A stretch of 24,240 nt of DNA from a virus: the IMG/VR virus record IMGVR_UViG_3300035670_001212, positions 1-24,240 of that record. One strand, written 5' to 3'. Within the stretch, counting starts at the first letter, position 1, and each line of letters starts with the position of its first letter. Below the pieces are notes generated by a model. It made no database searches. It was given only the letters and a program-made list of their open reading frames with translations, and was not told where the DNA came from. Both the position numbers and the translations under genes were made by a program. Below, one piece after another: positions 2,388 through 19,659 of this stretch.

Positions 2388-3593
2388 TTAAAATAACCAA
2401 TACTGACTGTTGTCTTTGGCGTTCTTAATGTACCACCGATCATCTCCATCCCATTCACTCTCAGGATTCAATCCATCATCTATTATCATTGGAATAATAT
2501 CTGTCTCGATTTTTTCAATTTCTTTTTCATACATCTCAAGGCGAACGTCTTTGTTAGTTAGAGCTTCGAAGAAGTCCTGTCGAGTTGCCCATGAGAAAAG
2601 AACCAAGCACATGACTAAATCGTCAGTATGACCCTCATCTGCTGTGAAAGATTGCCCATCTGCTATGAAAGTTGTCAATTCATCAATGGTGTCTGGATCT
2701 TCTACTAACAGTTTATCTTGTTCTATCAGATTTTTTAGAACCGCACAGCCTAACTTTTTTACGGGAATCGTTGTACGCACACCAAGTTGTACGCGCTTTA
2801 CACCGAACCCAGATTCTGTAATTGTTTGACCTTTGGTTCCTTTAAATGCAGCCTTAACCAAATTTTCATATTCTAGATCGTAATGAAGAATATCTGCCAC
2901 TTGGCTACCGATGTCATTTACCTCTACCAGAACATGAGCATTGTTATATTTTTTACCGACTGCCTTTATATAAGAAGGCAGCAGTAGGGGTGATACGACA
3001 TTACTCTTAAACCTAGCAACAACTCTGTATGGCATCTCAGAAATATCGAATACGCAAAATGCACTGTTATCGCCTCCCTGTCCGCGCGCGACATCTACCG
3101 TTATAAAATATTGCCTATCTTCTGTTCCTTCGCTGTCAACGCCTTTGATTGGTTCTCTGTATATCAGCAATCCTTCGGCATTTCTTTGCTTCGGTTTTCC
3201 ATAACTTAATTGATTTAATTTTGCTGCTTCAATCAGCGTGTTTGCAGATCCAATGAATGAACAATTATGCGATACTATATTATTTGTTAAATATGAATAA
3301 TTTTCTACAGAAAGTGCATCATATACTGTTATATTATCTGATACTGTAATTATTTCTAAGATTTCATTATAACCATCTTTAGTTTTTACTAAATTTTTAT
3401 TATTTAAATCTTTGGCAAATATCCACCCACGATCAGTCATAATTCTATGATCTGGGGTGCATTTTAATTTTATATCATTATCTAATTTTATTTCAATAAA
3501 ATTTTTTTTAATTAATTTTCTAACACCATTAAATGGTTGAAATCCAGACGGAGTTAATATTTTATATTTTGATGTTAGTTTACATTCTTCCAT
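2388..3593 (-). CDS. 17: Large terminase gp17, C-terminal fragment: split-intein C-part plus nuclease domain
   Basis: This 401-residue ORF starts with an intein C-terminal half (residues 1-110, ending in SHN) and continues from C111 with the C-terminal part of a T4-type gp17. The nuclease domain shows the expected acidic residues: D167 in YFITVDVARG, E224 in VLVEVND and D324/D325 in GHTDDLVM, in the order and spacing of the T4 RNase H-like headful-cutting nuclease. The ATPase half lies in the other fragment (4187-6223), so an active enzyme requires protein trans-splicing. The start ATG at 3593-3591 is the only Met before the intein motifs. It lies inside the 3' end of the GIY-YIG gene (19-nt overlap) with no good Shine-Dalgarno, which suggests translational coupling. 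Codons for the intein part are visibly more AT-rich than those for the nuclease domain. Confidence 0.93.
   Translation of the reverse strand: MEECKLTSKYKILTPSGFQPFNGVRKLIKKNFIEIKLDNDIKLKCTPDHRIMTDRGWIFAKDLNNKNLVKTKDGYNEILEIITVSDNITVYDALSVENYSYLTNNIVSHNCSFIGSANTLIEAAKLNQLSYGKPKQRNAEGLLIYREPIKGVDSEGTEDRQYFITVDVARGQGGDNSAFCVFDISEMPYRVVARFKSNVVSPLLLPSYIKAVGKKYNNAHVLVEVNDIGSQVADILHYDLEYENLVKAAFKGTKGQTITESGFGVKRVQLGVRTTIPVKKLGCAVLKNLIEQDKLLVEDPDTIDELTTFIADGQSFTADEGHTDDLVMCLVLFSWATRQDFFEALTNKDVRLEMYEKEIEKIETDIIPMIIDDGLNPESEWDGDDRWYIKNAKDNSQYWLF
3264..3593 (-). other. Intein 2, C-terminal half (IntC, 110 residues)
   Basis: Intein splicing motifs are visible in order: a beta strand beginning YKILTPSGFQPF (residues 10-21), block B as CTPDH (T46, H49), block F as VYDALSVENYSYL (residues 90-102) and block G as VSHN with penultimate H109 and terminal N110, followed by C111 as the +1 nucleophile. 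Only block A is missing, and it is found at the end of the other gp17 fragment. This is the unusual short-N/long-C split known from the AceL-TerL intein of an Antarctic lake metagenome (25-residue N-part, about 104-residue C-part, also in a phage terminase). All catalytic residues needed for splicing appear present. Confidence 0.92.
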
Positions 3594-4156
3594 GACTTAT
3601 TGGTAACTATGTTGTATAAATTTACAGAAGTTATATTATATTTTTTATGATATAATTTAGAAAAAGCTCTTGCCTGAGTCATCAAAACACCATTTTTTTG
3701 AACTGTTCCGACTCCAGGTATAATTTCATGTGATGAAAATAAATTTCTAATCTCACGAACAAGATCGGCATTTACTTTTGTGTGTTTATTATATCTTATA
3801 CCCTGTCTTGTTATTTTGAACTTTTCTACTGTTTCTGAAGAAAAACAATTTTTTACTCCTTTATTCCACGGTATTGTTCCTTTTTTAACACCACCTATAC
3901 CCTTTCGGTTGTAGCCAGAAAATTTTTCATATTCACCGCCTGGGGATAAATTCCAGCCATTTATAAAAGTATTATATTCTTTAATTAATTCTCTTTCGCG
4001 TATACCAGCATCACTTGGAGTATTATATGTTTCTAAAATTATAAACTCATGGGGTGGTTTTTTTCTTTTGTGATAATTTTTCCTGACAGATGGATTCTTG
4101 GTGAGGCCAATATACTTAATAATATTTTCTTGCGTTAATGAATAAAGGTGAATCAT
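3575..4156 (-). CDS. Free-standing GIY-YIG homing endonuclease
   Basis: A 193-residue protein sits between the two halves of the fractured gp17 gene. Its N-terminal domain matches the GIY-YIG nuclease fold: LYS at residues 4-6, KYIG at 14-17, a catalytic-type Arg at 25, Glu in GIRERELIKEYN (E54), then GWNLSPGGE near residues 67-75. A middle stretch with KKGTIPWNKGVK and SSETVEKFKITRQG resembles NUMOD3-type DNA-binding modules. The C-terminus, HTKVNADLVREIRNLF to IVTNKSWKNVN, looks like the helix-turn-helix tail common in phage homing endonucleases. Its likely role is to cut intein-free terL alleles and spread the cassette. It begins 30 nt after the first gp17 fragment stops and overlaps the second fragment by 19 nt. 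No strong ribosome binding site is seen. Confidence 0.9.
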   Translation of the reverse strand: MIHLYSLTQENIIKYIGLTKNPSVRKNYHKRKKPPHEFIILETYNTPSDAGIRERELIKEYNTFINGWNLSPGGEYEKFSGYNRKGIGGVKKGTIPWNKGVKNCFSSETVEKFKITRQGIRYNKHTKVNADLVREIRNLFSSHEIIPGVGTVQKNGVLMTQARAFSKLYHKKYNITSVNLYNIVTNKSWKNVN

Positions 4157-4186: not shown

Positions 4187-6223
4187 TCAATCAACCCATT
4201 CATAGAATTCTTCTATTGGTAATGTGTAAATATTATTATATTCGTCTTGAACTGTGATTTCGGTATCACCACTAACACAATTAAATTCTGCATCAAATTG
4301 ACGCTCCGAGGTATTTTTAATCTGCTGCTCTTTCCAAGCATCATCACGAAGCGGACCACCTGGGTATTGGGGTACTTGTCTCCAACTCACTTCAAATGGG
4401 ACGTATTCGCTTTGTCTGGAAGTAGCAGCTTTCCAGAGCTGGTAATACATGTTCAATCCCTTTGGGGTTGAGATTATGATCATCTGGGTGCTTTGACCAG
4501 ATGTAATTGTTGGATAGACTGAGGAAAAGAATTCTTCGGCAACGGTGGTTGGAACGAATGCGAACTCGTCTAAAAAAATGCAATTGTGTACTAAAATATT
4601 ATTAGCGTAGAATGAATGAACATCTTCTACTTCTAATAAATCATAAACATTTATTTGTTTGTATATTGTTTTTTCTTTAACAGATATGGTTTTATTTTTA
4701 CCGAGTATAACATGATCAGCAGTTAAATTATCAGCATTAACAAAACCAACTGTAGTTGCTATTTTATGATCTGCCGTACATATTATTTCGGTGTTGTCAT
4801 TAAATTTTATTTTTATTGTTGATTGATTAATTGATTTTGAGATTCCTCTGAATTTTTTATATCCTTCTGATGTGAGAACTTCCCATCTATCAATTTCTTT
4901 CCCTTGTTCCAGGGACCACCATTTTTCTCTATTCTTTTTAATGCTGCTATTCTCATTTTTTCTTTTGCTTCTGGTGACCGCTTCATCCCACGATGTTTCT
5001 CTGCTGTTTTTTGAATTTTGTTTTGATTTTTGTTTATCTTCTCTACGTGTTCTTTTGTTTTCTTTAACCCAGTTAATTTTTGTGAAATTATTTCTCCAAA
5101 TCCATCTGGTTTCTTGATCCCACACAAACGCCCAGTGTTTGCTTTGCTTATTTTCTTTCTCGTCTCTTTCGATATTATTTTTCCCGTATGAGATTCCGAT
5201 ATCTTCTTTTTTGTTTCTGCTGAGTGTTTTGAACCAATTCGCATCAACCTTCTCGCTTCCGAATAATTCTTTTTTGCCTCTACCAGAGCAGATTCGCTTA
5301 ACTGGAAAATTTTCCCCTGTCTTCCATTTACCATCCTGTAATATGCATGACACATTTTTGATTTCTCCACCCCACTCAGAAAATATGGAAGCAGACGATG
5401 AGCTAATAAATGTTCTCTGATTGTCAGATGAACTATATTGGTTTTCTGATTTGTCCCACCCAACGATTTTGGAATAATATGATGTTTTTCGTAATCCTGT
5501 AACATCTCTGAACGCGCTTTTGCTTTCTCCATCAGAGAAAAGTACCATTTCTTGTATTTGTTTTCTTCCATTTTCATTAAAATATTTATAATAATTACTA
5601 TTTCTAGACGAGTTAGCATAAAATTCTTCTATAGTAATATCATAAATTTCACCAGAAAATGAATCACGTATAGTAATAATACTATCACCACTAATGCAAT
5701 TATACGATCCACCACGAATTGCAGACGACGACGTAGCGGCAGCAGTTATCTTTGATCCGTTTTCCAGCTGTATAGATCCCTTGTTCCACTCCATTATGCC
5801 CTGCTGAAGCCACCAAGGAAGATGCTCATACGATTCCCTGATTCTAGAAAGAATGTCTCTAGCGGTATTCAGCTTGTTTGCTAGGATAGCTACGCTCATG
5901 TTCTGATTGAACAGGATCTTATGTAGTAAGTAGCAACAACCAACGGTGGTTGTTTTTCCACTCTGGCGCGCAAGCTTTCCGATAACAAATCGATTATTAC
6001 TTAAAAGTTTAACCAATGCCTCTTGATAGTCGTACAGATCAAATGGGGTGACACCCTTGTCCAAAGTTACGACCTTGATATATTTTTTTGCAAAATATAT
6101 TGGATCTTTAGCGCATTTTATATATTCCTGGACCTGCTCCTCTGTAAATTGAATCTTGATGCCAGCTGGCTTTAGATTCTTATTTCCAAGATATCCAGGA
6201 CCACGACTTACTCTAATTGCCAT
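4187..6223 (-). CDS. 17: Large terminase gp17, N-terminal fragment: ATPase domain with intein 1 and split-intein N-part
   Basis: This 678-residue precursor contains gp17 residues 1-175, intein 1 (176-547), gp17 again (548-648) and the N-part of split intein 2 (649-678). The extein is a T4-type packaging ATPase: Walker A as ARQSGKTT (K90), Walker B as CIFLDEFAF (D552, E553) and the coupling motif IIISTPKGLN (582-591). Its product drives DNA into the prohead through the portal. Joining the pieces with the nuclease fragment gives about 567 residues, against 610 for T4 gp17. The ATG at 6223 overlaps the gp16 end by 11 nt and has AGGA about 9 nt upstream. Intein 1 sits immediately before Walker B, so the unspliced protein cannot be an active ATPase. 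The frame is continuous; between residues 218 and 471 it is also read as an HNH gene in another frame. Confidence 0.93.
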   Translation of the reverse strand: MAIRVSRGPGYLGNKNLKPAGIKIQFTEEQVQEYIKCAKDPIYFAKKYIKVVTLDKGVTPFDLYDYQEALVKLLSNNRFVIGKLARQSGKTTTVGCCYLLHKILFNQNMSVAILANKLNTARDILSRIRESYEHLPWWLQQGIMEWNKGSIQLENGSKITAAATSSSAIRGGSYNCISGDSIITIRDSFSGEIYDITIEEFYANSSRNSNYYKYFNENGRKQIQEMVLFSDGESKSAFRDVTGLRKTSYYSKIVGWDKSENQYSSSDNQRTFISSSSASIFSEWGGEIKNVSCILQDGKWKTGENFPVKRICSGRGKKELFGSEKVDANWFKTLSRNKKEDIGISYGKNNIERDEKENKQSKHWAFVWDQETRWIWRNNFTKINWVKENKRTRREDKQKSKQNSKNSRETSWDEAVTRSKRKNENSSIKKNREKWWSLEQGKEIDRWEVLTSEGYKKFRGISKSINQSTIKIKFNDNTEIICTADHKIATTVGFVNADNLTADHVILGKNKTISVKEKTIYKQINVYDLLEVEDVHSFYANNILVHNCIFLDEFAFVPTTVAEEFFSSVYPTITSGQSTQMIIISTPKGLNMYYQLWKAATSRQSEYVPFEVSWRQVPQYPGGPLRDDAWKEQQIKNTSERQFDAEFNCVSGDTEITVQDEYNNIYTLPIEEFYEWVD
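4190..4279 (-). other. Intein 2, N-terminal half (IntN, 30 residues)
   Basis: After the extein sequence QFDAEFN the protein continues with C649 and CVSGDTEITV, a classic intein block A, then TLPIEEFYEWVD and a TGA stop. No other intein motif follows in this ORF; block B onward is in the ORF at 2388-3593. In gp17 alignment the flanking exteins (EFN before, CSFIGSANTLI after) join exactly where T4 gp17 passes from its ATPase to its nuclease domain. The 30-residue length matches the atypical class with very short N-parts. Confidence 0.92.
4813..5571 (-). CDS. HNH homing endonuclease nested out of frame inside intein 1
   Basis: From the ATG at 5571-5569 this frame gives 252 residues beginning MEENKYKKWYFSLMEKAKAR, the usual opening of free-standing phage HNH endonucleases. 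The nuclease core is YEKHHIIPKSLGG (H30, H31), N45 in TNIV and REHLLAH (H54, H58). Several NUMOD3-like DNA-binding repeats follow, for example GSKHSAETKKKISESHTGK and GMKRSPEAKEKMR, then PWNKGKK near residues 220-226. The frame is shifted by one base from gp17, which remains open throughout. The last 30 or so residues overlap the start of the intein C-part. In-frame ATGs also exist at 5577 and 5619, but the protein family favours 5571. No convincing Shine-Dalgarno is seen. Its likely role is mobility of intein 1. Confidence 0.87.
   Translation of the reverse strand: MEENKYKKWYFSLMEKAKARSEMLQDYEKHHIIPKSLGGTNQKTNIVHLTIREHLLAHRLLPYFLSGVEKSKMCHAYYRMVNGRQGKIFQLSESALVEAKKNYSEARRLMRIGSKHSAETKKKISESHTGKIISKETRKKISKANTGRLCGIKKPDGFGEIISQKLTGLKKTKEHVEKINKNQNKIQKTAEKHRGMKRSPEAKEKMRIAALKRIEKNGGPWNKGKKLIDGKFSHQKDIKNSEESQNQLINQQ
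5583..5590 (-). promoter_or_regulatory. TATAAATA motif before the nested HNH gene
   Basis: The minus strand reads TATAAATA, the T4 late promoter consensus, a few bases upstream of the HNH start codons at 5577 and 5571. If used, transcription would begin almost at the ATG and give a nearly leaderless message. This could let the endonuclease be expressed apart from gp17, but in AT-rich DNA the match may be accidental. Confidence 0.25.
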
Positions 6224-9105: not shown

Positions 9106-9110
9106 TAAAA

Positions 9111-9136
9111 AACTCCGTATTTATTTATACGGAGTT
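9111..9136 (-). promoter_or_regulatory. Hairpin covering the gp13 ribosome binding site; possible terminator
   Basis: On the minus strand AACTCCGTAT and ATACGGAGTT form a perfect 10-bp stem around a 6-nt loop (AAATAA), immediately followed by TTTT and then the gp13 ATG. The GGAG that serves as gp13 Shine-Dalgarno is paired with CTCC in the stem. The hairpin plus T-run also looks like a weak Rho-independent terminator for the upstream gene cluster, and A-rich DNA on the other side makes it symmetric. A TATAAATA late-promoter-like octamer lies in the loop and stem (9129-9122). Which role is real cannot be decided from sequence. Confidence 0.6.
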
Positions 9137-9142
9137 ATTTTA

Positions 9143-9715
9143 TTATTTATTTTGAGGTGGTTGTTGTGCTGGTGGTGGTTCGTGTGTGCTGACTGGAATG
9201 TCTTGAATATCGTTATATGAAGTTTTATTTTCGATATACCACCGACGAGTCACTGGCTCAACGCCCTCGTCTTCCTTTGAATGCTGGTAGTTGCTGAATC
9301 CTGGCATTGCCAATGGACATTGTAGCTTTGGATAGTCGAGTTTCGAGTATTTGTCCCCATCGGACATCAACCAGGTTCCTTCACGATCTCCACATCCACA
9401 TCCACCACAATAGAATTTTCCTGGAGTTGAAGATTCTTTCAGATGCTCACATGGAGGCAGAACTCCACCCTGCTGTTGATTTCCAAAGCATGAAAGAACA
9501 CGAAGCTGCTTTACTGGCTTCTGAACCTTATTGTCCTGTATTCCTCTTGATGCTATTGCTGTGGCGAAACTTTGGAGCATGGACATCTTTTTTTTTACCA
9601 TGCTCTGTTCTTGAATCGCTTGCTTTCTGAATTCTGGAGCTTGTTGTGGCTGCTGTGGTCTTGTTTCTGGCTCTTGTGAATTGTTATTCTTATTTTTATT
9701 GCAATTACATCCCAT
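9143..9715 (-). CDS. Small cysteine-rich protein with a putative metal-binding cluster
   Basis: A 190-residue protein of unknown function between the fibre genes and gp13, where T4 has its whisker gene; no resemblance to fibritin is seen. It opens with MGCNCNKNKNNN and a Gln/Pro-rich stretch (about residues 14-40), then a basic helix-like segment. A Cys module follows: LSCFGN, PPCEHL, YCGGCGCGDREG and LQCPLAMPGFSN (residues about 74-142), resembling small zinc- or iron-sulphur-binding knuckles with a CxxCGC core. The C-terminus is again Pro/Gln-rich. There is no signal peptide or membrane segment. The start has GAGGT about 8 nt upstream, within the upstream stop region. It is a real gene; the metal-binding idea is inference. 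Confidence 0.8.
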   Translation of the reverse strand: MGCNCNKNKNNNSQEPETRPQQPQQAPEFRKQAIQEQSMVKKKMSMLQSFATAIASRGIQDNKVQKPVKQLRVLSCFGNQQQGGVLPPCEHLKESSTPGKFYCGGCGCGDREGTWLMSDGDKYSKLDYPKLQCPLAMPGFSNYQHSKEDEGVEPVTRRWYIENKTSYNDIQDIPVSTHEPPPAQQPPQNK

Positions 9716-9725
9716 AGTATTTACC

Positions 9726-11267
9726 TCAAGTTATTACAATTTTTCTGAAAAGCATCAGCTTCACATCACTATTTATACCAAATAGCATGGTTTTTCCGTA
9801 ATTTTCATTTTTGGAAAAGTTCAAACCATACAAGAAGTTTACATTATTAAATGTATTTTGTCCAGTAGGAAATTGCACTGCATATTGATCGTTGAAGAAG
9901 CTAGTCGAGCAATATGCTCCAGTCAGTTCAAAAATATCCAACAATGATGTATTGTTTTTTAATTGTTCTGCAAAAAACATCAGCTCAACAATCGATGGTA
10001 TGTAATAGTCTATGAATCCATTTCGTTGTATGCCAGAAATGCTATTTATTGTAGCTGAACTCAATCTTGGTGGTGCAGTCAAAGATCCATTTGCATTGAA
10101 ATAACCATCATAATATGATGTGTTTATGGTTGGATTCACATCGTTTGAAGTTATCAGTGGTGTCTGTAGGAATGTTTTATTCACTACAATCGCCCATTTA
10201 TCGTGTGGGGATTCATCAGTAACATTCACAAATAACGATTGTGGAGTTCCAAAATTCAACGATCCGTAAACTTTAGTTGGAGATGTTGCATTTGGCTTCA
10301 GGGGTTTAAATTGACCAATGTATATTCCACCTTGAAATTCATCGCCTATCTGAAGTCCCAGTGAATCGAATTCTTCCTGTGTATATTGCGCGGGATTTAG
10401 ATAGCTGTTGGAGTATGAAGGAGCCTCTGGTGAATATGGGTGGTTGCAATATGCAACAGTAGAATCGATTGTTTCTGGATTGATCCAATACCCAGAGCAC
10501 GCAAATTCTGTTTTCAGTGAGCAATTGTATGAATATTGATTTTCAGATTCTACTAGCTCGTAGCATGGGCCAAATAAATCATTTGCAAAAGCACTTGATG
10601 CCGTTGTTATTCTAGTTACAATGTTATTAACATCACAGTTTACAGGATTTACCCCAGAAACTATACTCACACCACATGTTTTATTTGGAGTATATGTCGT
10701 GTCGTAAAACGGATCTGTTTCACCTGGGCCTTGTGCTATTGCAAGATTAGCACACTCTCTCGCACCACATACATTCTGACAAGTTATTCCAATAGGAAAA
10801 TTATCTTGTATTATCAGGGAACAACAAGCAGTTGGTATTCTAACATCAATAGTTCTATTAATTCCATCTATTATAACTTCTTTAGTACACAAAGCTGGTG
10901 TGGGTGATTGCGACATAGGAATCCAATTACCACCAATTCGATTACATTCACATTCAGTGACATCAGATCGTATTCCCACCCCTAAAGACCGAAAAAATCC
11001 TGGAATTACAGGAACAAATGGTAAATTTACCATGGCTTCATTTCTCTGTGATGTTGTAAGAAACGAACATGCACAGCAATGACCTTTTTCAGATGATGAT
11101 GGGCATGGAGAATCTGGATTTTGTAAAAATTGTCCTCCGCGAGAAAAGCATTCCAAAAAAGTTATGGCTTCCGATGTTCCATCTGAAAAACAGCATTTTC
11201 CAGCTGACTTCAATTCAGCTCCATAATCATATGCACTTTTTATTCTTGATCTAAATTGAACTGTCAT
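9726..11267 (-). CDS. Cys-rich fibre/adhesin-like protein with DUF1566/Lcl-like C-terminus, no collagen tract
   Basis: The start chosen is the ATG at 11267-11265, which overlaps the stop of the upstream gene as ATGA; a further upstream ATG at 11294 lies inside that gene. The 513-residue product begins MTVQFRSRIKSAYDYGAELK, then has one GKCCF-type Cys module with SRGGQFLQ (about residues 23-68) and a second GGNWIP-type module. Around residues 305-320 is GLQIGDEFQGGIYIG, also seen in variant form in two neighbouring genes. A DUF1566-like C-terminus follows, with DKWAIVV and IDYYIPSIVELMFFAEQL (from about 419). Unlike its relatives it lacks collagen-like repeats. It is probably a virion surface or receptor-binding component; this is inferred from position and modules. 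Confidence 0.8.
   Translation of the reverse strand: MTVQFRSRIKSAYDYGAELKSAGKCCFSDGTSEAITFLECFSRGGQFLQNPDSPCPSSSEKGHCCACSFLTTSQRNEAMVNLPFVPVIPGFFRSLGVGIRSDVTECECNRIGGNWIPMSQSPTPALCTKEVIIDGINRTIDVRIPTACCSLIIQDNFPIGITCQNVCGARECANLAIAQGPGETDPFYDTTYTPNKTCGVSIVSGVNPVNCDVNNIVTRITTASSAFANDLFGPCYELVESENQYSYNCSLKTEFACSGYWINPETIDSTVAYCNHPYSPEAPSYSNSYLNPAQYTQEEFDSLGLQIGDEFQGGIYIGQFKPLKPNATSPTKVYGSLNFGTPQSLFVNVTDESPHDKWAIVVNKTFLQTPLITSNDVNPTINTSYYDGYFNANGSLTAPPRLSSATINSISGIQRNGFIDYYIPSIVELMFFAEQLKNNTSLLDIFELTGAYCSTSFFNDQYAVQFPTGQNTFNNVNFLYGLNFSKNENYGKTMLFGINSDVKLMLFRKIVIT
9770..9777 (-). promoter_or_regulatory. Possible late promoter (TATAAATA)
   Basis: The minus strand reads GGTATAAATAGTG near the end of the upstream coding sequence, an exact match to the T4 late promoter octamer. 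The next gene starts at 9715, leaving a leader of about 50 nt, which is a natural distance. It could drive the Cys-rich gene and the gp13-gp17 block separately from the fibre genes. Confidence 0.4.
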
Positions 11268-14200
11268 GATGGGCAATCCTCGAATTGACTGCAATCTATA
11301 CTAGAGCAATCCATATTTACGCATATAAACTGATCTTCCGAAACATATATTTTCTTATAGGCACTTGCTTGTGTTAAGTTTTGTCCCGATGGACATGGTG
11401 CTGCAATTACATTTAATATATTTTCTTCTGGTTCATACAATCCATCATTATCTCTATCATTTGAATGTGCTATTAAATTATTGATTAGAGTTGTTGTTTC
11501 TGGCGTTAATGGCAATGAAAGGGTATTTATTTTATTTGTGCACGCTTCTCCTGCCAGTTCGCAGAAATTAGTACATATAATTCCACCATTTATTGGCACA
11601 TTCAATCCACAGTTTTGTATTGTAATTGGATCAGTTGAAGGTCCATTTGGACCACAAATTGTATTTCTATAGTAAGAGGTTATTTTTCCAGCAACCGATG
11701 CTGCCATATATTCTGGTGGCGATATGTATGGAAAATTATATTTCTCGGTTGGTATTCCATTTATTGTTTCTACGCTGACAAGCAATTTCCAAACAACTAG
11801 TGGATATACATCATTCGTATCTACAATCCAATAATCTTGATTTTCAATATAACCATATTCATTAAAAAATGACTTAATGAATGCTGTAGCAGCTATTATT
11901 GCACCACCAGATGTAATTTCATTGAAGAGCGTCATCAAATTGCATCCAGCTGGACACTTTCCACATTCACGTATAAGCAAACATCCAAATGGTGGAGTTA
12001 TCGTTCCTGGTGGGGCTGAAGAACAATCACCACAGAAAGTGCATTCTTGTGCTGCTGGGCATGTAACTTGACCACCTTCTAGATTGAATGCATAGTTTAG
12101 TGTTGATGTCTTGCAAGAACATGGACTTGTGTGATCGCAATTTCTACAATTAAATAGAGATGAAATTCCATTTGTTCCTGACGATTCCACGCAATTTATT
12201 CCACTAGGTGGAGCACATGTGCATGTGGAAATAGATCCAATATTTCTTCCATTGCCACCAATCCCATATTGTGATGTTATTGTTGATAAGCAGTTCAGGC
12301 AACTTGTGCTAAAATTAGTATCTGGGCCACCAATAATCGCACAAACTAAATTTTCTAGATTTGCAGCACCATAACCATTGGTTTGTTTATCTAATTCGTT
12401 GATGTTGCAAGAGTTGCATGTTCCTTCTGAATTTTCATTTGATTCACATGAACATGATGTATTTGTACAGCCATATTTTATGATATTTTTATTTAGATTT
12501 ACATCGGTAGTGCTATAATAAACTCTTCCTGTGTACTGACCACACGCAGTTGATAATGTTGAATATGGATTATTTCCAACATCACCAAATCTGAGTTGAT
12601 CCGAGAATGAATTATATGGATTTGAAAATACAACTATTCTTAGAGAATTCTTATAATTTAATACTCGTTTATTTCTGGCTTCCGTTACATCCATCAAAGC
12701 GTCATATGTGTCTGAAAACGTTAGTGGTATTTGATCATCCGTTAGAATATAATCCCTGTAATTTTTCAATTTGATGCATAATTTTATTCCAGTTGCAGTT
12801 TTACTTATAACTGTCTCGGCTGGATCTGGAGTTTGTCCCCCAGCTCCATTAGCATACCACGGATTGTTGATAGCTCCATATACTTTTCGTTTCTTAGCAA
12901 ACACCTTTGGAGCCTGCCCAGTTTGTTGATTTTCCAGATTGTAATCTGGTATGTAATTTCCAAATATATCCATAGTTCCAGTATCACAAATTATTGAACT
13001 ATGTCTGGTTTTATATATTGGTACTCTTTTTACGTTTTCTCCATCCGCAGTATTGTTATAGGGATTAGCAACATCATACGAAAACACATCTCGTTCTGAT
13101 GGCGTTGGGAATTGTGTTTGTCTTAGTTCTATGTTAGCTTCATAGTCTATTGTTAGCGGATGGCCTGGATTCGAGAATCCATATGGAATTAATGTTTCTG
13201 CTGCTGGATCATTGCCGTTAAATGTTTCAACATATAATCTTCTATTTATGAATATGTTTGAAAATCTATTGAGTGTAGCATTTAGAGGATAATATCCAAT
13301 CGACAAAATATTATTGGTATCGGTATCATCATATTGTGGGTAAAAAATTGTTGGATTTTCTTGTGCTGAATTACATACTTCACAATATCCAAAATCGGTA
13401 TATCCATATGTTCTTGTATATTTTACTTTATCGTTTGTTGTCAAAATTCCAGATACATTTGCCTGTTGTCTAGCTTTGGATATATAACCACTTCTTGAAA
13501 ATGAATTTTCATTATTATACCATTGAAAATTTATACCATCGATATTGGTTATATCACTTGATAAGGATGATAAATCAGAACCAAATCTTCCGCCGATATT
13601 TGTACTTTGATAATAAAATGGATTGTTGTAACTTATACCCTCAGCATAAGTATATCCCGCAGAATTTCTAAACGGAATTTGTGGTCTTGCGCTTCCAGTT
13701 GGGATTGGAGCATCTGCGTTTATTGTAGTAGATTCGTGATTTAAATATCGACCGCGTGGATTTAACCCATATAAAGGACAATTTAGTTCCTCTATAAGTC
13801 TAACAGTATTGAGGTTTATACTAGATCCATCTGCTAAATCTTGTGGTGAATTTTGAATATTAATATAATTGTAGCCATTTTCTGTTATAAAAGAACCAAG
13901 ATTATAATAATATTCATATTTGTCTATATTTTGCTGTTCTTGTGTATTGGCTAATGTTAATTTTCCTAAACTCCCCCAAACAGAATATTCTTCTCCCTTT
14001 GTGCTTGGATCGATAAAATTTATTGGAACATTGTTAGATAATGTTAGTCCCTGATATGCGGCCATATTTGTTGAAAAATACTTTGGATACCAAGTTCTTA
14101 GAACATAAGCTCTTACAGACTCTGTTAAGTCTGTATTTTCTTCCTGCATTTCAATTTCAATGCAAAATTGCAAGTCTGTCCCATTTGAACATTTATATTC

Positions 14201-16579
14201 ATCCTTTATTGGAATATAATAATCTTTTACATTATATCCAATAACTGGTCTTCTACCTGCATTATTATTTCCTTGTGTTTGGGGGCATTGTGATGAAGCA
14301 ACAGCTTGGTTGTAATCGGGAAAAATAGTATCATCAAAGATTCTTGGTACACCATCTGGTTCACCCCCCAGACCTCTAGATCTATGTGTTCTAGTATAAT
14401 TTATTTGACCGCTGCCTTCGGGTATGCCATTGGCAAAGCAATCCGTGCAAGTGGATCCAGTTGATATATCTGATGTTCCTGGACATTCTACTGATTCAGA
14501 TACTGGTGGAACTAAACAGTTGCTTTCATAACAATTTGGAAGAACATTTTGACATGGATTTTCCAAACATGTGGTATTTCCAACACAAGTCACGCCAGAT
14601 TCATCACAACCAGCATTTGGATCTGAAATATCTGGAATATCTTCGCAGTTTCTTACGCCACCATTTGGAGTAGTCAAACATCTACATTTTACACCAGGGG
14701 TTGGAACATAACAATCTGAGCATGGTATTTGACATGGATCACATGGAGTCGCGCATGTTTCTCCAGGATAAAAGGTGTCATTTCTTCCGCTCAATGCAAA
14801 ACAACTTGCTCTAGTTGTGAAAGTGCAGAAAACAGCTAAATCAGAATCTGGATCACAAAAACAACATTTACCTTGTTGTTCTACACAATTATATTGCGCT
14901 GCTAAATCAGCACAGCGGGTAAAATCAGCAGAACCGCATCCACTGCCAACAACATAATTTTCATTATATACCCATGTTTCTGGATTTTGACAATTATTTA
15001 GTGTGGTAACTCTACAAGCAAATGATGGTAGGCCATTCTCGTTTGTGGTACACTCACAACAAGACCCAAGTGGCAATCCAGCATCACCAAAACATCCGCA
15101 ATTAACTTCGCCACACGCAACCCCTTCTCCTAAAAATACACCACCAGCTTCCTTGCATTGTATTAAAGTTGCTTGATTACAAGTTCCCGAGGAACAACAT
15201 GCACCAACTTTGACGTTCTGGATGCAGCAATCTATTTCTTCGCATTGTTTTCCTGGGAATGCAACGCCACCTATTATTTGTTCGCATTCTATTTTGGTAT
15301 AGTCATCGCCTAGGCAAACTCCATTCTTGCAGCAGGCAACTGGTTCTTTGCACCGATCAAAGCACAGTCTTGTAGAATTTGGTGCTGCTGGATCAACAGA
15401 AGCGTTGAAGCTATCGCAATTTACACCAAATAGGAATTTTCCACCAAAGGCAGTGCATTCTGCATAGTTGCTATTCTCTATGCACTTTCCATTCGAGCAG
15501 CATACACCAAATGTGGATCCACATGTTTCAGCGCACGATTGCAATGGATGGAATGTTCCAGCGATTGCATCGCATTCGTTCCTAGTCACGAAATCTCTAC
15601 ATGTGGTTCCAGTAATTCCAGAGTAGCAGCAAGACCCGATAATCGATCTTAGCTCACAATTGAAAGTGGTTCCATCGATTCCTCTTGCAGCAACCGTTGC
15701 ATACCAAGAATTTCCTTGATCGAATGATGTTAGATTTAATATTGATTTTCCACAGGTCAGATAATTTTCACCAGTCTCAAAGTAAACATTAGCTGGAAAA
15801 TTCCATAAATCATCGCTCTCAGTTATTATAGTGAAAGATACTATTTCGCTATTATTGAAATTTCCAGAAAAAGCAGATATTCCATTTGGTGTACGAACAT
15901 AAAAAACACCAGCATCGTTTACGTTTAGAACAACTGGTGTTGGAGATTCGGTTTTATAATTTGGCTGTACGTACTTTACCTTTGCTCTTGGTAATAATTT
16001 TGAAAATTTTGGAGTCGATGCATTTTGTTCAAAATTCAATGCCCCAGTATAAAATGCTCCACTAGTTACACCAATTGTTGTACTTGATATTTGATTTTTT
16101 TCTTTTAGATATATCAGAGTATTGTCGGTCAGACTTGCAGAATCGACCAAGCCGCTCAATGGAGTATAGATAGAGTCTATGTAGATTGCCTGTGAATCTT
16201 CTGTAACAACCAACGATCCGCTTCCAGAGATTCCACGCATAACAAAGGAACTTGTTCCTTCACCAGACGATATAAAGCTATATGTAGTTACATCTGTCAG
16301 TGGATTTAAATAATCTACCGTTTGAACCTTAGAATAATCCGTTGATGTCGCTCCACCAAATGCGCCTATGGCACTATATTCAGTGCCATCTGACATGATT
16401 ACTGTAGCACCAGCAGAGTAAAATGTAATATTTTCAATGTGTGGTGCATACGATCCACGCGGACCAATAGATCCACTGGTGGCTCCATCTGGCCCCGTTG
16501 GTCCACGATTGCCTATGTTTCCTGTCGGTCCTGTTGGTCCGTATGTTACTGTTATAAATCCAATTGCGCTACTTGACAT
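11264..16579 (-). CDS. Giant collagen-like, Cys-rich structural protein (1771 residues)
   Basis: The largest gene in the window. I chose the ATG at 16579 (MSSSAIGF) over the one at 16618, because 16618 lies inside the upstream gene and the neighbouring paralogues open with MSAFPGSS and MSLYGSSP. Residues about 14-43 are collagen-like (GPTGPTGNIGNRGPTGPDG). A beta-rich region follows, then six GxCC modules (about 315-613) and further Cys clusters. Next is a long Tyr/Asn-rich region that is nearly Cys-free (about 730-1320), then new clusters such as CSCESNENSEGTCNSC and CRNCDHTSPCSC. Near the C-terminus DRDNDGLYEPEE fits a calcium-binding loop. No DUF1566 domain is present; the next gene, coupled by ATGA, supplies one. 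A long fibre or baseplate-attached adhesin is likely. Confidence 0.8.
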   Translation of the reverse strand: MSSSAIGFITVTYGPTGPTGNIGNRGPTGPDGATSGSIGPRGSYAPHIENITFYSAGATVIMSDGTEYSAIGAFGGATSTDYSKVQTVDYLNPLTDVTTYSFISSGEGTSSFVMRGISGSGSLVVTEDSQAIYIDSIYTPLSGLVDSASLTDNTLIYLKEKNQISSTTIGVTSGAFYTGALNFEQNASTPKFSKLLPRAKVKYVQPNYKTESPTPVVLNVNDAGVFYVRTPNGISAFSGNFNNSEIVSFTIITESDDLWNFPANVYFETGENYLTCGKSILNLTSFDQGNSWYATVAARGIDGTTFNCELRSIIGSCCYSGITGTTCRDFVTRNECDAIAGTFHPLQSCAETCGSTFGVCCSNGKCIENSNYAECTAFGGKFLFGVNCDSFNASVDPAAPNSTRLCFDRCKEPVACCKNGVCLGDDYTKIECEQIIGGVAFPGKQCEEIDCCIQNVKVGACCSSGTCNQATLIQCKEAGGVFLGEGVACGEVNCGCFGDAGLPLGSCCECTTNENGLPSFACRVTTLNNCQNPETWVYNENYVVGSGCGSADFTRCADLAAQYNCVEQQGKCCFCDPDSDLAVFCTFTTRASCFALSGRNDTFYPGETCATPCDPCQIPCSDCYVPTPGVKCRCLTTPNGGVRNCEDIPDISDPNAGCDESGVTCVGNTTCLENPCQNVLPNCYESNCLVPPVSESVECPGTSDISTGSTCTDCFANGIPEGSGQINYTRTHRSRGLGGEPDGVPRIFDDTIFPDYNQAVASSQCPQTQGNNNAGRRPVIGYNVKDYYIPIKDEYKCSNGTDLQFCIEIEMQEENTDLTESVRAYVLRTWYPKYFSTNMAAYQGLTLSNNVPINFIDPSTKGEEYSVWGSLGKLTLANTQEQQNIDKYEYYYNLGSFITENGYNYINIQNSPQDLADGSSINLNTVRLIEELNCPLYGLNPRGRYLNHESTTINADAPIPTGSARPQIPFRNSAGYTYAEGISYNNPFYYQSTNIGGRFGSDLSSLSSDITNIDGINFQWYNNENSFSRSGYISKARQQANVSGILTTNDKVKYTRTYGYTDFGYCEVCNSAQENPTIFYPQYDDTDTNNILSIGYYPLNATLNRFSNIFINRRLYVETFNGNDPAAETLIPYGFSNPGHPLTIDYEANIELRQTQFPTPSERDVFSYDVANPYNNTADGENVKRVPIYKTRHSSIICDTGTMDIFGNYIPDYNLENQQTGQAPKVFAKKRKVYGAINNPWYANGAGGQTPDPAETVISKTATGIKLCIKLKNYRDYILTDDQIPLTFSDTYDALMDVTEARNKRVLNYKNSLRIVVFSNPYNSFSDQLRFGDVGNNPYSTLSTACGQYTGRVYYSTTDVNLNKNIIKYGCTNTSCSCESNENSEGTCNSCNINELDKQTNGYGAANLENLVCAIIGGPDTNFSTSCLNCLSTITSQYGIGGNGRNIGSISTCTCAPPSGINCVESSGTNGISSLFNCRNCDHTSPCSCKTSTLNYAFNLEGGQVTCPAAQECTFCGDCSSAPPGTITPPFGCLLIRECGKCPAGCNLMTLFNEITSGGAIIAATAFIKSFFNEYGYIENQDYWIVDTNDVYPLVVWKLLVSVETINGIPTEKYNFPYISPPEYMAASVAGKITSYYRNTICGPNGPSTDPITIQNCGLNVPINGGIICTNFCELAGEACTNKINTLSLPLTPETTTLINNLIAHSNDRDNDGLYEPEENILNVIAAPCPSGQNLTQASAYKKIYVSEDQFICVNMDCSSIDCSQFEDCPS
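11423..11458 (-). other. DxDxDG calcium-binding-type loop
   Basis: The encoded stretch DRDNDGLYEPEE has Asp at positions 1, 3 and 5, Gly at 6 and Glu at 12, the standard EF-hand or thrombospondin-type-3 loop pattern. It stands alone, near the C-terminus of the 1771-residue protein, so it is more like an isolated calcium clamp than a paired EF-hand. Confidence 0.6.
14741..15637 (-). repeat. Six tandem GxCC cysteine modules in the 1771-residue protein
   Basis: Modules begin GSCCYSG, GVCCSNG, VACCKNG, GACCSSG, GSCCECT and GKCCFCD. Most follow the pattern G-x-C-C, a Cys 4-9 residues later, a Thr/Asn-rich stretch, another Cys, GG-x-F and a final Cys pair, spaced about 40-60 residues. The same pattern appears in the two upstream paralogues. 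It recalls Cys-rich modules in secreted bacterial proteins, especially planctomycete-type ones. Confidence 0.8.
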
Positions 16580-16599
16580 AATATTATTTATTCTTTGTA

Positions 16600-19500
16600 T
16601 TATAATGACGGATTGCAATCACCTGGACACGATTCACAGCTTGAGAAGTATGATGGTTGAATTATTTCAGCTACATTTGTATTTGCACATCCAATTATTA
16701 TTGGAATTCTTCTAACAGGTCTTAGTCTTGCTGAGTAATTTTTTCTGGATCTAGAACGAACCAATCCATCATTCGCATTGATTTCATCATTAAAACTAAA
16801 TTTTTGAGTTAGCATATTTTCTCCAGCACAGACATTCAATGACAGTTCATACGCTGTCTTATCGTTGAGTCCAGAGAAATCGTTTTTAGTAAATCTATAT
16901 TTTGTATTTTTATCCAGAGATGTAACTTGCTCTTCGAGGTTATATGAAGAATAATCTAGATGATCCGATGAACTCCATGACTTGAGATAGCAAACTGATG
17001 TTGATGACCAATATTCTGCGTTGGCGGAAATAAGAATCGGAGAATCACCATTTATTAAAATTTGATTATTCAATTCCACTACATTGTTATGGATGTAGTT
17101 TAACTCTACTATTGATGGAATATACCAATCATTATATCCTTTATATTCTGATTGATTCAATATAGATATTTGTCTGGTGCATGAATTTTGTGGATTGTTT
17201 GCTTCCCACATTTCTGAATATTTTTGAGAAAATACTTCTATATTGGTTTCTACTAAATTTTCTACAACAGAAAAACTCCAATTAGATCTTTTGGTTACAC
17301 TAGTATTATAGAACGCAAATCTATCATATGCTTTACTGTCTGAGTTTCCTCCACCACGGAACCAAAGCCTTGGCTTTAGAATTGAACTTTGATCGAACAT
17401 TCTAGTTGACAATAGACCATCGACTGCAAACGTAGTTATTGGTTCTTGATTGAATTCGCCTATTCTAGCTCTTCCTTCTTCCATGCCCCAAGGTAGTGTA
17501 GTTGCATTATATGCATCTTCTGGTGCTACGACTAAGGCCCATAGCATATGAATGGAGTTTTCGCCATAATATTCCGAAGCTAATTCTCTATAAAGAGCTG
17601 AATATTGAGAAGTTTCTGGTATCAGATAATTTAAATCAATATCCCCACCAACAGGATATGCAAATCTACCATTTGACGCATTATATTCAGAGGAACCAGA
17701 ATATTGTATTAAGTTGTTCCACTTGACTACTGTCTGAGTTTCTTCGATTAGTGTTAGTTTTTCCGCTGTTTGTTGGATATAAGGAACACCATATTTAACT
17801 AAACATTTATTTAATGCGTTATCTGTATATGATAGATCTATACCATCACTTGATTTAGTTCTGATAAAATATTTCATATTTAAATCAAACGCTAATGCAT
17901 CGATTGATCCAATTGCAGCTCCGTTAGCACCACCACAATTTTTCCAATTCCAAGTAAAAGCACCGCTTCCAGAAACTTCACCTCTTGGAAGAACCCTACA
18001 AATTAGTGGTTGACCATATGCAACTAGGGGATTTCCATAAGATGAGCATGGAGATGGCATTCCAATCACACCGACCAAATATCCACCACCAATTTTTGTT
18101 CCTATCGGCAAACACGGTTGTATTGTATTTGCCCTACATGAAGTTGAAGCATTAAAATATTCTTGTATAAAATTAGTTCCACAGCACTCTACTTCTTCGC
18201 ATAATGTTCCTGGCCCATGAAATATACCTCCACTAGCAGAACATATGTCTGGTAATTCTTGATTACAAGTATATTCCCCATCTATTTTTTTACAGCAAGC
18301 TCCTGCAAGCCCTTGACAACATGCTGGATCTCCTGTTTGCGAAATACAAGTTGCTTCATTTGTAAATACAGCCCCTGGTATTGCAGAACATTCAACATTA
18401 GTCAGATCAAAGCAATATCCACGATAGCAACACCGTCCTGTATTTACAGATCCAGGACACGTATTGGGGCAAGTAAAATATGAAGATGCATTTTGTTCGC
18501 CAGAGCAAATTTCTCCAGGAAAAAATGTCCCATTGAATTCTGAGCACTTTTCGAGTGATGAATTTATGCACTTTCCATTGACGCAACATGCACCTTCAGC
18601 ATAGCAATCACCAGAAGAAATTCTATTGATGCATGATGTCGTGTTGAAACTTCCTCCAACATTTCTGCAATAATCTCTGCTTACGTAATCAAGACAGCCA
18701 ATTTCTGTGGTATCACTTTCACAAAAACAACAAGATCCTATACTGTCACTTTCAACTATCTGTGGCGTGAACGTGGATTGTTTATTGTATTCTATCCCAG
18801 CAAATTTAAATGTTAGATTATCAGATCCAGTAACACCTAGATTTAGCCTTGTTTCTGATATTGCTGGATCTTCAACTAGTTGATAATTATTATTGTTGAT
18901 GGCGAATTGACCGTAATTTACACTAAAGAATGCAAATCCAGTTGCTCCAGATAATCCAGATATGTTTTGATTTGAAAATGTATATGTCGGAATCCCTATA
19001 TTTTGATTATTGTGAACTGGATGCCGATCTGCCGCCAAAGCGACGCTGAGTAGTTCAGTTTGTGGATTATATACAGACCCATCAACAGCAAACATTAAAT
19101 TGTTTGCTTTGTATAATATCTCACCAGTGTTTCCTATCGAATTAAAAGAGTATGTCTGGCCTACTAAGTAAATATAACTACCATCGGCACTTATTCCTTT
19201 AAGTGCTCCACCAGCCGATTCGAATGTTCTTATTTTTAATGCAACTTCATCGTTTGTTGGATCATAGCCAGAAAAATTTGGCTGAATCACAACTTCATTT
19301 CTTGCTTCGAAGATATCAACGTAGCTGTATAAAACAGAATGACCTCTAGTTGCAACAGGGCCAGAAGTAAGTCCTTTTGCAACAATCACCGATTGTGGTA
19401 TTCCACCTATAAAACTTACACCAGCATTTCCAGAGAATTGAACATAAAACTCTGTACTATTAAAATTTTCAAATGAAATTCCACTAGAAGCGTAATATAC

Positions 19501-19659
19501 GGCCACGATACCAGGACCAGTTGCTCCTGTGCGACCATTCAACGCTTCTCCCGTGATTCCTATGGGACCATCTGGTCCTGTGTCCCCCTGAATGCCTATG
19601 GCAGCTGGAATAACAGACGCATATATTGGTATTGGTGAACTTCCAGGAAAAGCACTCAT
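16600..19659 (-). CDS. Collagen-like, Cys-repeat, DUF1566/Lcl-type fibre protein (1019 residues)
   Basis: Domain order: collagen-like tract at residues 22-50 (GIQGDTGPDGPIGITG and GRTGATGPG); a beta-rich region to about 300; four GxCC modules (308-493); a linking module with IGTKIGGGYLVGVIG (519-533); a region with MLWALVVAPEDA; and a DUF1566-type domain from about 842 with YNDWYIPSIVELNYIHNN, AEYWSSTS and final RLRPVRRIPI. Legionella collagen-like adhesin (Lcl) has the same collagen plus DUF1566 logic, where the C-terminal domain binds sugars. By analogy this may be a receptor-binding fibre. The start overlaps the upstream stop as TAATG. It ends with a Cys-rich tail (CESCPGDCNPSL). Confidence 0.82.
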   Translation of the reverse strand: MSAFPGSSPIPIYASVIPAAIGIQGDTGPDGPIGITGEALNGRTGATGPGIVAVYYASSGISFENFNSTEFYVQFSGNAGVSFIGGIPQSVIVAKGLTSGPVATRGHSVLYSYVDIFEARNEVVIQPNFSGYDPTNDEVALKIRTFESAGGALKGISADGSYIYLVGQTYSFNSIGNTGEILYKANNLMFAVDGSVYNPQTELLSVALAADRHPVHNNQNIGIPTYTFSNQNISGLSGATGFAFFSVNYGQFAINNNNYQLVEDPAISETRLNLGVTGSDNLTFKFAGIEYNKQSTFTPQIVESDSIGSCCFCESDTTEIGCLDYVSRDYCRNVGGSFNTTSCINRISSGDCYAEGACCVNGKCINSSLEKCSEFNGTFFPGEICSGEQNASSYFTCPNTCPGSVNTGRCCYRGYCFDLTNVECSAIPGAVFTNEATCISQTGDPACCQGLAGACCKKIDGEYTCNQELPDICSASGGIFHGPGTLCEEVECCGTNFIQEYFNASTSCRANTIQPCLPIGTKIGGGYLVGVIGMPSPCSSYGNPLVAYGQPLICRVLPRGEVSGSGAFTWNWKNCGGANGAAIGSIDALAFDLNMKYFIRTKSSDGIDLSYTDNALNKCLVKYGVPYIQQTAEKLTLIEETQTVVKWNNLIQYSGSSEYNASNGRFAYPVGGDIDLNYLIPETSQYSALYRELASEYYGENSIHMLWALVVAPEDAYNATTLPWGMEEGRARIGEFNQEPITTFAVDGLLSTRMFDQSSILKPRLWFRGGGNSDSKAYDRFAFYNTSVTKRSNWSFSVVENLVETNIEVFSQKYSEMWEANNPQNSCTRQISILNQSEYKGYNDWYIPSIVELNYIHNNVVELNNQILINGDSPILISANAEYWSSTSVCYLKSWSSSDHLDYSSYNLEEQVTSLDKNTKYRFTKNDFSGLNDKTAYELSLNVCAGENMLTQKFSFNDEINANDGLVRSRSRKNYSARLRPVRRIPIIIGCANTNVAEIIQPSYFSSCESCPGDCNPSL
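18181..18738 (-). repeat. Four tandem GxCC cysteine modules
   Basis: Modules open with GSCCFCE, GACCVNG, GRCCYRG and GACCKKI at residues 308, 356, 408 and 453, with the recurring second half of GG-x-F or similar followed by Cys. They are divergent in sequence but keep Cys spacing, so they are old duplications rather than recent tandem copies. Confidence 0.8.

Follow-up and report, generated by a model that had tools for sequence, protein, structure and literature searches.

How can an endonuclease gene lie inside terL, out of phase with it, and leave the terL frame without a stop codon? The question is raised by a T4-like virus, IMG/VR record IMGVR_UViG_3300035670_001212, positions 1 to 24,240 of which make up the window, i.e., the whole stretch of 24,240 nucleotides analysed here. 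On the minus strand, which carries all of the features described below, a single open frame at 4187-6223 encodes the terL (gp17) N-extein, a first intein, the middle extein, and the N part of a second intein. The N-extein (5699-6223), which holds the ATPase part (Pfam Terminase_6N, E = 4.7e-14), ends in ...RGGSYN and is followed by intein 1 (4583-5698; 372 aa), which begins with Cys1, ends in His-Asn before a +1 Cys at the Walker B sequence CIFLDEF, and is stop-free through an embedded gene for an HNH/NUMOD3 homing-type endonuclease (4813-5577; 254 aa, ATG start). The middle extein (4280-4582) is collinear with the uninterrupted terL of L003-L009 (such identifiers denote loci of relatives on viral contigs, and WIN the window locus), and the C-extein, with the nuclease domain, follows at 2388-3263 (Pfam Terminase_6C, E = 6.3e-16). 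Intein 1 itself comprises an N-intein segment upstream of the HNH ATG (5578-5698; CISGDSIITIRD...EEFYANSSRN..., delimited in a 16-locus alignment), an overprinted segment of about 230 terL-frame codons (4889-5577), which the substitution, junction, and model-confidence data given below mark as a spacer peptide, and a C-intein part (4583-4888; RWEVLT...CTADH...VYDLLEV...HN) that overlaps the HNH tail at 4813-4888. The HNH gene terminates within conserved C-intein sequence, so its entire length of 765 bases is read in both frames. The original prediction placed the HNH start at 5571, but this is the second ATG; the ATG at 5577 is found at the same place in 12/12 aligned relatives.

The HNH ORF as listed (4813-5619) occupies the frame next to that of the terL ORF, and reading the frames of 4187-6223 bore out the predictions that the HNH gene is one base out of phase with a stop-free gp17/intein frame and that the remaining minus-strand frame contains stops, of which it is full. 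Any HNH codon with a third-base T creates a stop in the terL frame if the codon after it starts with AA, AG, or GA. Such at-risk junctions number 98 in the listed HNH ORF, or 96 counted from the ATG at 5577, and T is present at none of them, compared to 61 of the 169 other junctions of the ORF (Fisher p = 1.8e-14, T-capable codons). The original prediction had counted about 84 at-risk residues, none preceded by a T-ending codon; the absence of T holds, but the figure is too low, as it omitted AGN codons, from which TAG would arise. Synonymous shuffles with the HNH gene's own codons produced a mean of 16 terL-frame stops and a minimum of 7 in 20,000, against none observed, and recoding with the codon usage of the window or of the GIY-YIG gene gave an expectation of 23-25. 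The dual open frames are real and far beyond chance.

Homologous loci display the same arrangement. A scan of viral contigs identified nine loci with an HNH 69-82% identical, each of which shares the terL intein site and keeps the terL frame open, and profile scans added loci down to 42% HNH identity (to the query L109), for a total of 20 distinct loci including the window (19 further), all members being from metagenome contigs and some additional hits being copies or fragments. All 20 loci share the phase of the HNH gene relative to terL, and in each an intact HNH is paired with a terL frame that contains no stop; in loci where stops of the third frame were counted, it held 19-35. Thus, both frames stay open in homologous terL loci, and the case that would have spoken against the original prediction, an intact HNH in the overprint phase beside a broken terL frame, was encountered in 0/20; nor was an HNH in frame with the intein found within the overprinted clade. 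Across the 20 loci, T is present at 0 of 1,744 at-risk junctions (1,396 + 348) and at 1,001 of 3,166 others (823/2,536 + 178/630; 32%). For 18 free-standing or in-frame relatives, T occupies 648 of 1,667 at-risk junctions (39%), and these relatives contain 10-34 stops in the frame equivalent to that of terL. Searches of bacterial and archaeal genomes with the HNH returned no relative. No member was found among cultured phages, where four records matched in the C-intein only, at 32-42% identity, and the HNH matches among those listed were 31-37% identical.

The window carries the marks of a class 1 intein: C1, CTADH (block B, TxxH), and HN|C. C1 and the +1 Cys are present in 16/16 aligned loci; L104 and L105 have Ser/Ala for the penultimate His, and in L109 and L110 the last residue is Gln; judging from these terminal residues, splicing may not be equally efficient in all loci. 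Residues 271-372 of the structural model match solved inteins of the HINT fold (Z up to 11.2, 94-102 aligned residues), the N part of the model being of low confidence. Collectively, these features are those of an intein, and we infer that intein 1 splices out of terL. The HNH begins about 40 residues after Cys1, and block B follows the HNH insert. A structural study places all known intein endonuclease domains at the C35 site (PMC6801210), and atypical TerL split inteins have N parts of 25-37 residues (PMC11766414). Intein 1 is neither of these: its HNH is out of phase and precedes block B, so it is not an endonuclease in the intein frame at C35, and it is one open frame in all overprinted loci, hence not two polypeptides. 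The original view of the arrangement as unusual for being out of frame therefore stands, with the refinement that the HNH is also off the usual endonuclease position and near the N-terminal position of the atypical splits.

Substitution patterns reveal what is being maintained. Between pairs of loci, pN/pS in the HNH frame is 0.01-0.22, whereas for the terL-frame reading of the same DNA it is 1.77-6.33 in 7/8 pairs with a defined ratio, the eighth being L109/L110 at 0.79. Substitutions are concentrated at HNH third positions (33-45%, compared to 6-10% at second positions, in WIN/L001, WIN/L003, and WIN/L004). The sequences thus indicate purifying selection on the HNH amino acids, and the low HNH ratios together with terL-frame ratios mostly above 1 imply that the terL frame is kept open while its amino acids are largely free. 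The original claim that selection keeps both frames open is supported by this dual-frame measure, albeit in an asymmetric form in which the HNH protein is conserved and the terL frame is mainly kept stop-free. Stop avoidance would accordingly be what chiefly constrains the spacer. Conservation is poor in the HNH tail (after DGK), which overlaps conserved C-intein sequence. AF2 modeling of intein 1 in full, from a 9-row alignment, gave pLDDT values of 76-92 over the bulk of the C-intein part and about 20 in the spacer. HNH-less mini-inteins at the same site, in L028, L031, and L032, keep the first part of the N-intein segment without the spacer; in L032, a remnant, TATAAAAA, stands in place of the relatives' TATAAATA, and the HNH ATG is also gone.

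The HNH gene appears to have its own means of expression. In the window, a T4-type late promoter box (TATAAATA, 5583-5590) is followed by five bases and then the HNH ATG. T4 late promoter boxes lie at -13 to -6 (PMC1524935), and with the 5-nt gap the predicted transcription start is therefore the A of the HNH ATG. The box NATAAATA with the same 5 nt and ATG is found in 10/16 aligned loci, and NATATATA with the same spacing in four more. This box in the window's clade suggests separate, possibly leaderless, late expression of the HNH, and leaderless transcription and translation are what we would predict there. A box with 5-nt spacing is absent before the HNH of L109/L110, L140, L142, L143, and L148, and L142 has a Shine-Dalgarno sequence before its HNH ATG; leaderless expression is therefore not family-wide. 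Two other window genes, with starts at 16579 and 22541, have the box at a similar spacing (5 and 6 nt, respectively), and the probability of the three placements by chance is about 3e-6. We detected no conserved hairpin that could sequester the start of the HNH gene in the manner of T4 I-TevI; folding energies are mostly near shuffled values, and the more stable folds at the HNH starts of L104, L105, and L109 share no structure.

Several other features of the window were noted. The genes starting at 16579 and 22541 are large and tail- or fibre-like, and begin 5-6 nt after ATAAATA with no evident Shine-Dalgarno sequence, which suggests leaderless late transcripts in this phage group. The region at 11264-22541 contains very long Cys-rich ORFs of up to 1784 aa with collagen-like GPTGPTG starts, apparently structural. 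Just before gp13, a hairpin with a T run after it (ACTCCGTATAAATAAATACGGAGTTTTTT, 9106-9150) holds the late-promoter motif in its loop, and terminator and promoter may overlap there.

The HNH protein matches Pfam NUMOD3 above the cutoff and HNH and HNH_5 below it, and an HH...N...H motif is invariant in the aligned HNH homologues. A Foldseek search with the HNH model gave no significant match, so the HNH assignment rests on sequence. Its motifs and the pattern of mobility make it a putative endonuclease. In L005 and L006, the N-exteins are 72% identical, whereas the N-intein is 97%, the HNH 98%, and the C-intein 95% identical. L004/L007 behave likewise (intein and HNH 95-98%, N-extein 72-73%), as do L109/L110 (about 94-96%, compared to 75% in the terL N-extein). 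An intein and HNH far more alike than the N-extein is what homing of the two as one unit predicts, and these comparisons indicate that the unit moves between terL alleles.

Phylogenetic analysis of the HNHs places the overprinted ones in one clade (98/97), so the overprint has a single origin in this tree. The sister group (L111 1-2552, L112 434-3384, L121 2016-4627) occupies the same terL site, with the HNH as an in-frame fusion to the N-intein; the C-intein there has a frame of its own, which opens at a GTGA overlap. The overprinted and fused HNHs together fall among free-standing phage HNHs (94/74). The origin of the overprint is a sharp problem because a typical AT-rich HNH gene of the family carries 10-34 stops in that frame. 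In simulations, the probability of an open frame was 21-31% at a third-position T (T3) weight of 2% and 0.03-0.3% at 10%. One idea is that GC-rich codon usage, in a phage of GC-rich origin, would have made the first open frame possible; none of the relatives found combines GC-richness with an open frame, and the deepest members have a GC3 of 0.29-0.57. Passage through a split state would be another route. Further variety was observed among the relatives. A possible -1 slippery site, GGGAAAA or GGGAAAG, occurs in L111 and L112. A GIY-YIG-like endonuclease lies in frame at a similar terL intein position in L048 (2126-3709, contiguous), and others lie in frame at a similar position in L150, L155, L158, L172, and L174, apparently ending the N part. 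Further inteins occur at the Walker A site, in the upstream terL part, in L028 and L105; L028 has an apparent in-frame LAGLIDADG-like insert at this intein, along with its mini-intein at the Walker B site.

The same terL gene thus carries both an overprinted intein and a fractured one. The N part of the second intein (4187-4279; CVSGDTEITV...EWVD) stops at 4187, and is followed by a GIY-YIG endonuclease gene (3575-4156; Pfam GIY-YIG, E = 1.2e-5) and then by a separately started C part (3264-3593), which matches CatC (6dsl, E = 1.6e-10). This GIY-YIG gene is not overprinted, with 19-38 stops per frame over the split region. In work cited in PMC10448857, Dassa et al. (2009) reportedly described fractured genes with split inteins and free-standing endonucleases. 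The window resembles these in combining a phage gene, an intein, and an endonuclease gene in one locus; its second intein looks to be of the fractured-gene type, whereas intein 1 is not fractured and its coding frame is kept.

Based on the data presented above, we consider it likely, with a probability of about 0.88, that intein 1 is mobile, resides in the essential terL gene, and carries its homing endonuclease gene as an out-of-frame overprint instead of an in-frame fusion. Ribosomes from the terL start would traverse the HNH gene in the wrong phase and add about 230 meaningless residues to the intein, whose flanking halves would fold and splice the spacer out to give mature terminase. The HNH protein would be made separately, with initiation at the HNH ATG. 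The window's clade probably uses a leaderless transcript from the internal late promoter, and a Shine-Dalgarno site probably serves at least one further member, L142. The HNH protein would then cleave intein-less terL at this site, and the whole unit would be copied in. As terL is essential, stop mutations in its frame would be purged, and the HNH would therefore avoid T at every at-risk third position. With less assurance, we lean toward regarding this as a stable class of intein, in which overprinting admits an endonuclease gene to a position believed to be closed to a folded in-frame domain, separate initiation yields the nuclease from a leaderless late mRNA and the terminase from the long mRNA, and the intein disposes of the nonsense peptide.

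Other explanations must account for the same observations. The coding strand here is purine-rich and T-poor (43% A, 20% T), which lowers the frequency of stops somewhat, but for chance or base composition to have left both frames open is vanishingly improbable: shuffles with these very codons still give 16 stops, T is missing from every at-risk junction in 20 loci, and free-standing relatives are riddled with stops in the equivalent frame. A chance origin of the open frames was in fact already refuted by the homologue set, in which no member has a stop. The terL frame, being continuous, must be translated, and might be the true coding frame of a novel intein domain, with the HNH reading spurious; we regard this as extremely improbable, given that the HNH side shows the NUMOD3 match, the HNH motif, a pN/pS of about 0.2, and overprinted relatives at identities as low as 42%, and that the spacer has terL-frame ratios that mostly exceed 1 by a wide margin, lacks a modeled fold, and has no counterpart in the mini-inteins. 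That the spacer peptide is functional in addition, for example in splicing timing or the intein fold, and the locus thus dual coding at the amino acid level, is unlikely, although it retains the most credit among these alternatives. The spacer is consistently hydrophilic and charged, a few of its residues are conserved in aligned members, and L109/L110 have a ratio below 1; however, a common spacer sequence is expected as a by-product of a conserved HNH, the ratio exceeds 1 in the other pairs, and mini-inteins persist without it.

Two further alternatives concern how the gene products are made. Ribosomal frameshifting from terL could yield the HNH as an N-intein-HNH fusion, and the in-frame fusions of the sister group lend this some plausibility, but in L001/L002 the HNH frame has a TAA immediately before the HNH ATG, so that in L001 the HNH is unreachable by frameshift from upstream, and the ATG is invariant in the 12/12 aligned loci; we judge this very unlikely. 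Removal of the insert at the RNA level comes to mind given that group I introns are a frequent home of phage HNH genes. It is, however, highly implausible here, as an Rfam search of the sequence gave no relevant match, introns require no open frame, and intein halves flank the insert.

Relative to known systems, the nearest precedent for the overprinted intein is ShiLan (PMC11855218), which likewise has an out-of-frame HNH inside a host gene, an open host frame, and a pattern of mobility. In ShiLan, however, no intein or intron is detectable and the insert is thought to stay in the methylase, a non-essential protein, whereas in the window intein halves flank the HNH, within terL of an AT-rich T4-like phage and behind a late-promoter box. 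In inteins with an in-frame endonuclease such as PI-SceI and PI-PfuI (C35 site; PMC6801210), splicing domain and endonuclease similarly move as a unit; the window endonuclease differs in that it is read out of frame, is probably made as a separate protein, and is placed toward the N terminus of the intein, upstream of block B. Like AceL-TerL, GOS-TerL, and Cat (PMC11766414), the window has a TerL intein, with its break after about 37-40 residues and a C part that aligns to CatC, but its precursor is contiguous rather than split, and the overprinted HNH gene fills the break. The endonucleases of the T4 td intron (I-TevI) and Aeh1 (mobE) lie inside a gene with their own regulated expression, from a late promoter for I-TevI (PMC3014915). 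They are thus also expressed apart from the gene that houses them, but reside in an intron or between gene halves, where no open host frame is needed. In the literature searched, which took in only a minority of subscription papers and preprints, we found no account of an out-of-frame endonuclease within an intein.

These results imply that an intein can shelter an endonuclease gene outside its own protein, against the expectations of an in-frame domain and of the C35 site. The locus also provides an unusually clean natural measure of selection on a reading frame as such, over deep divergence, with one frame selected as protein and the other mainly for lack of stops. Moreover, as this terL insertion position holds overprinted, mini, fused, split, and in-frame forms, the order of events that produced them is open to test.
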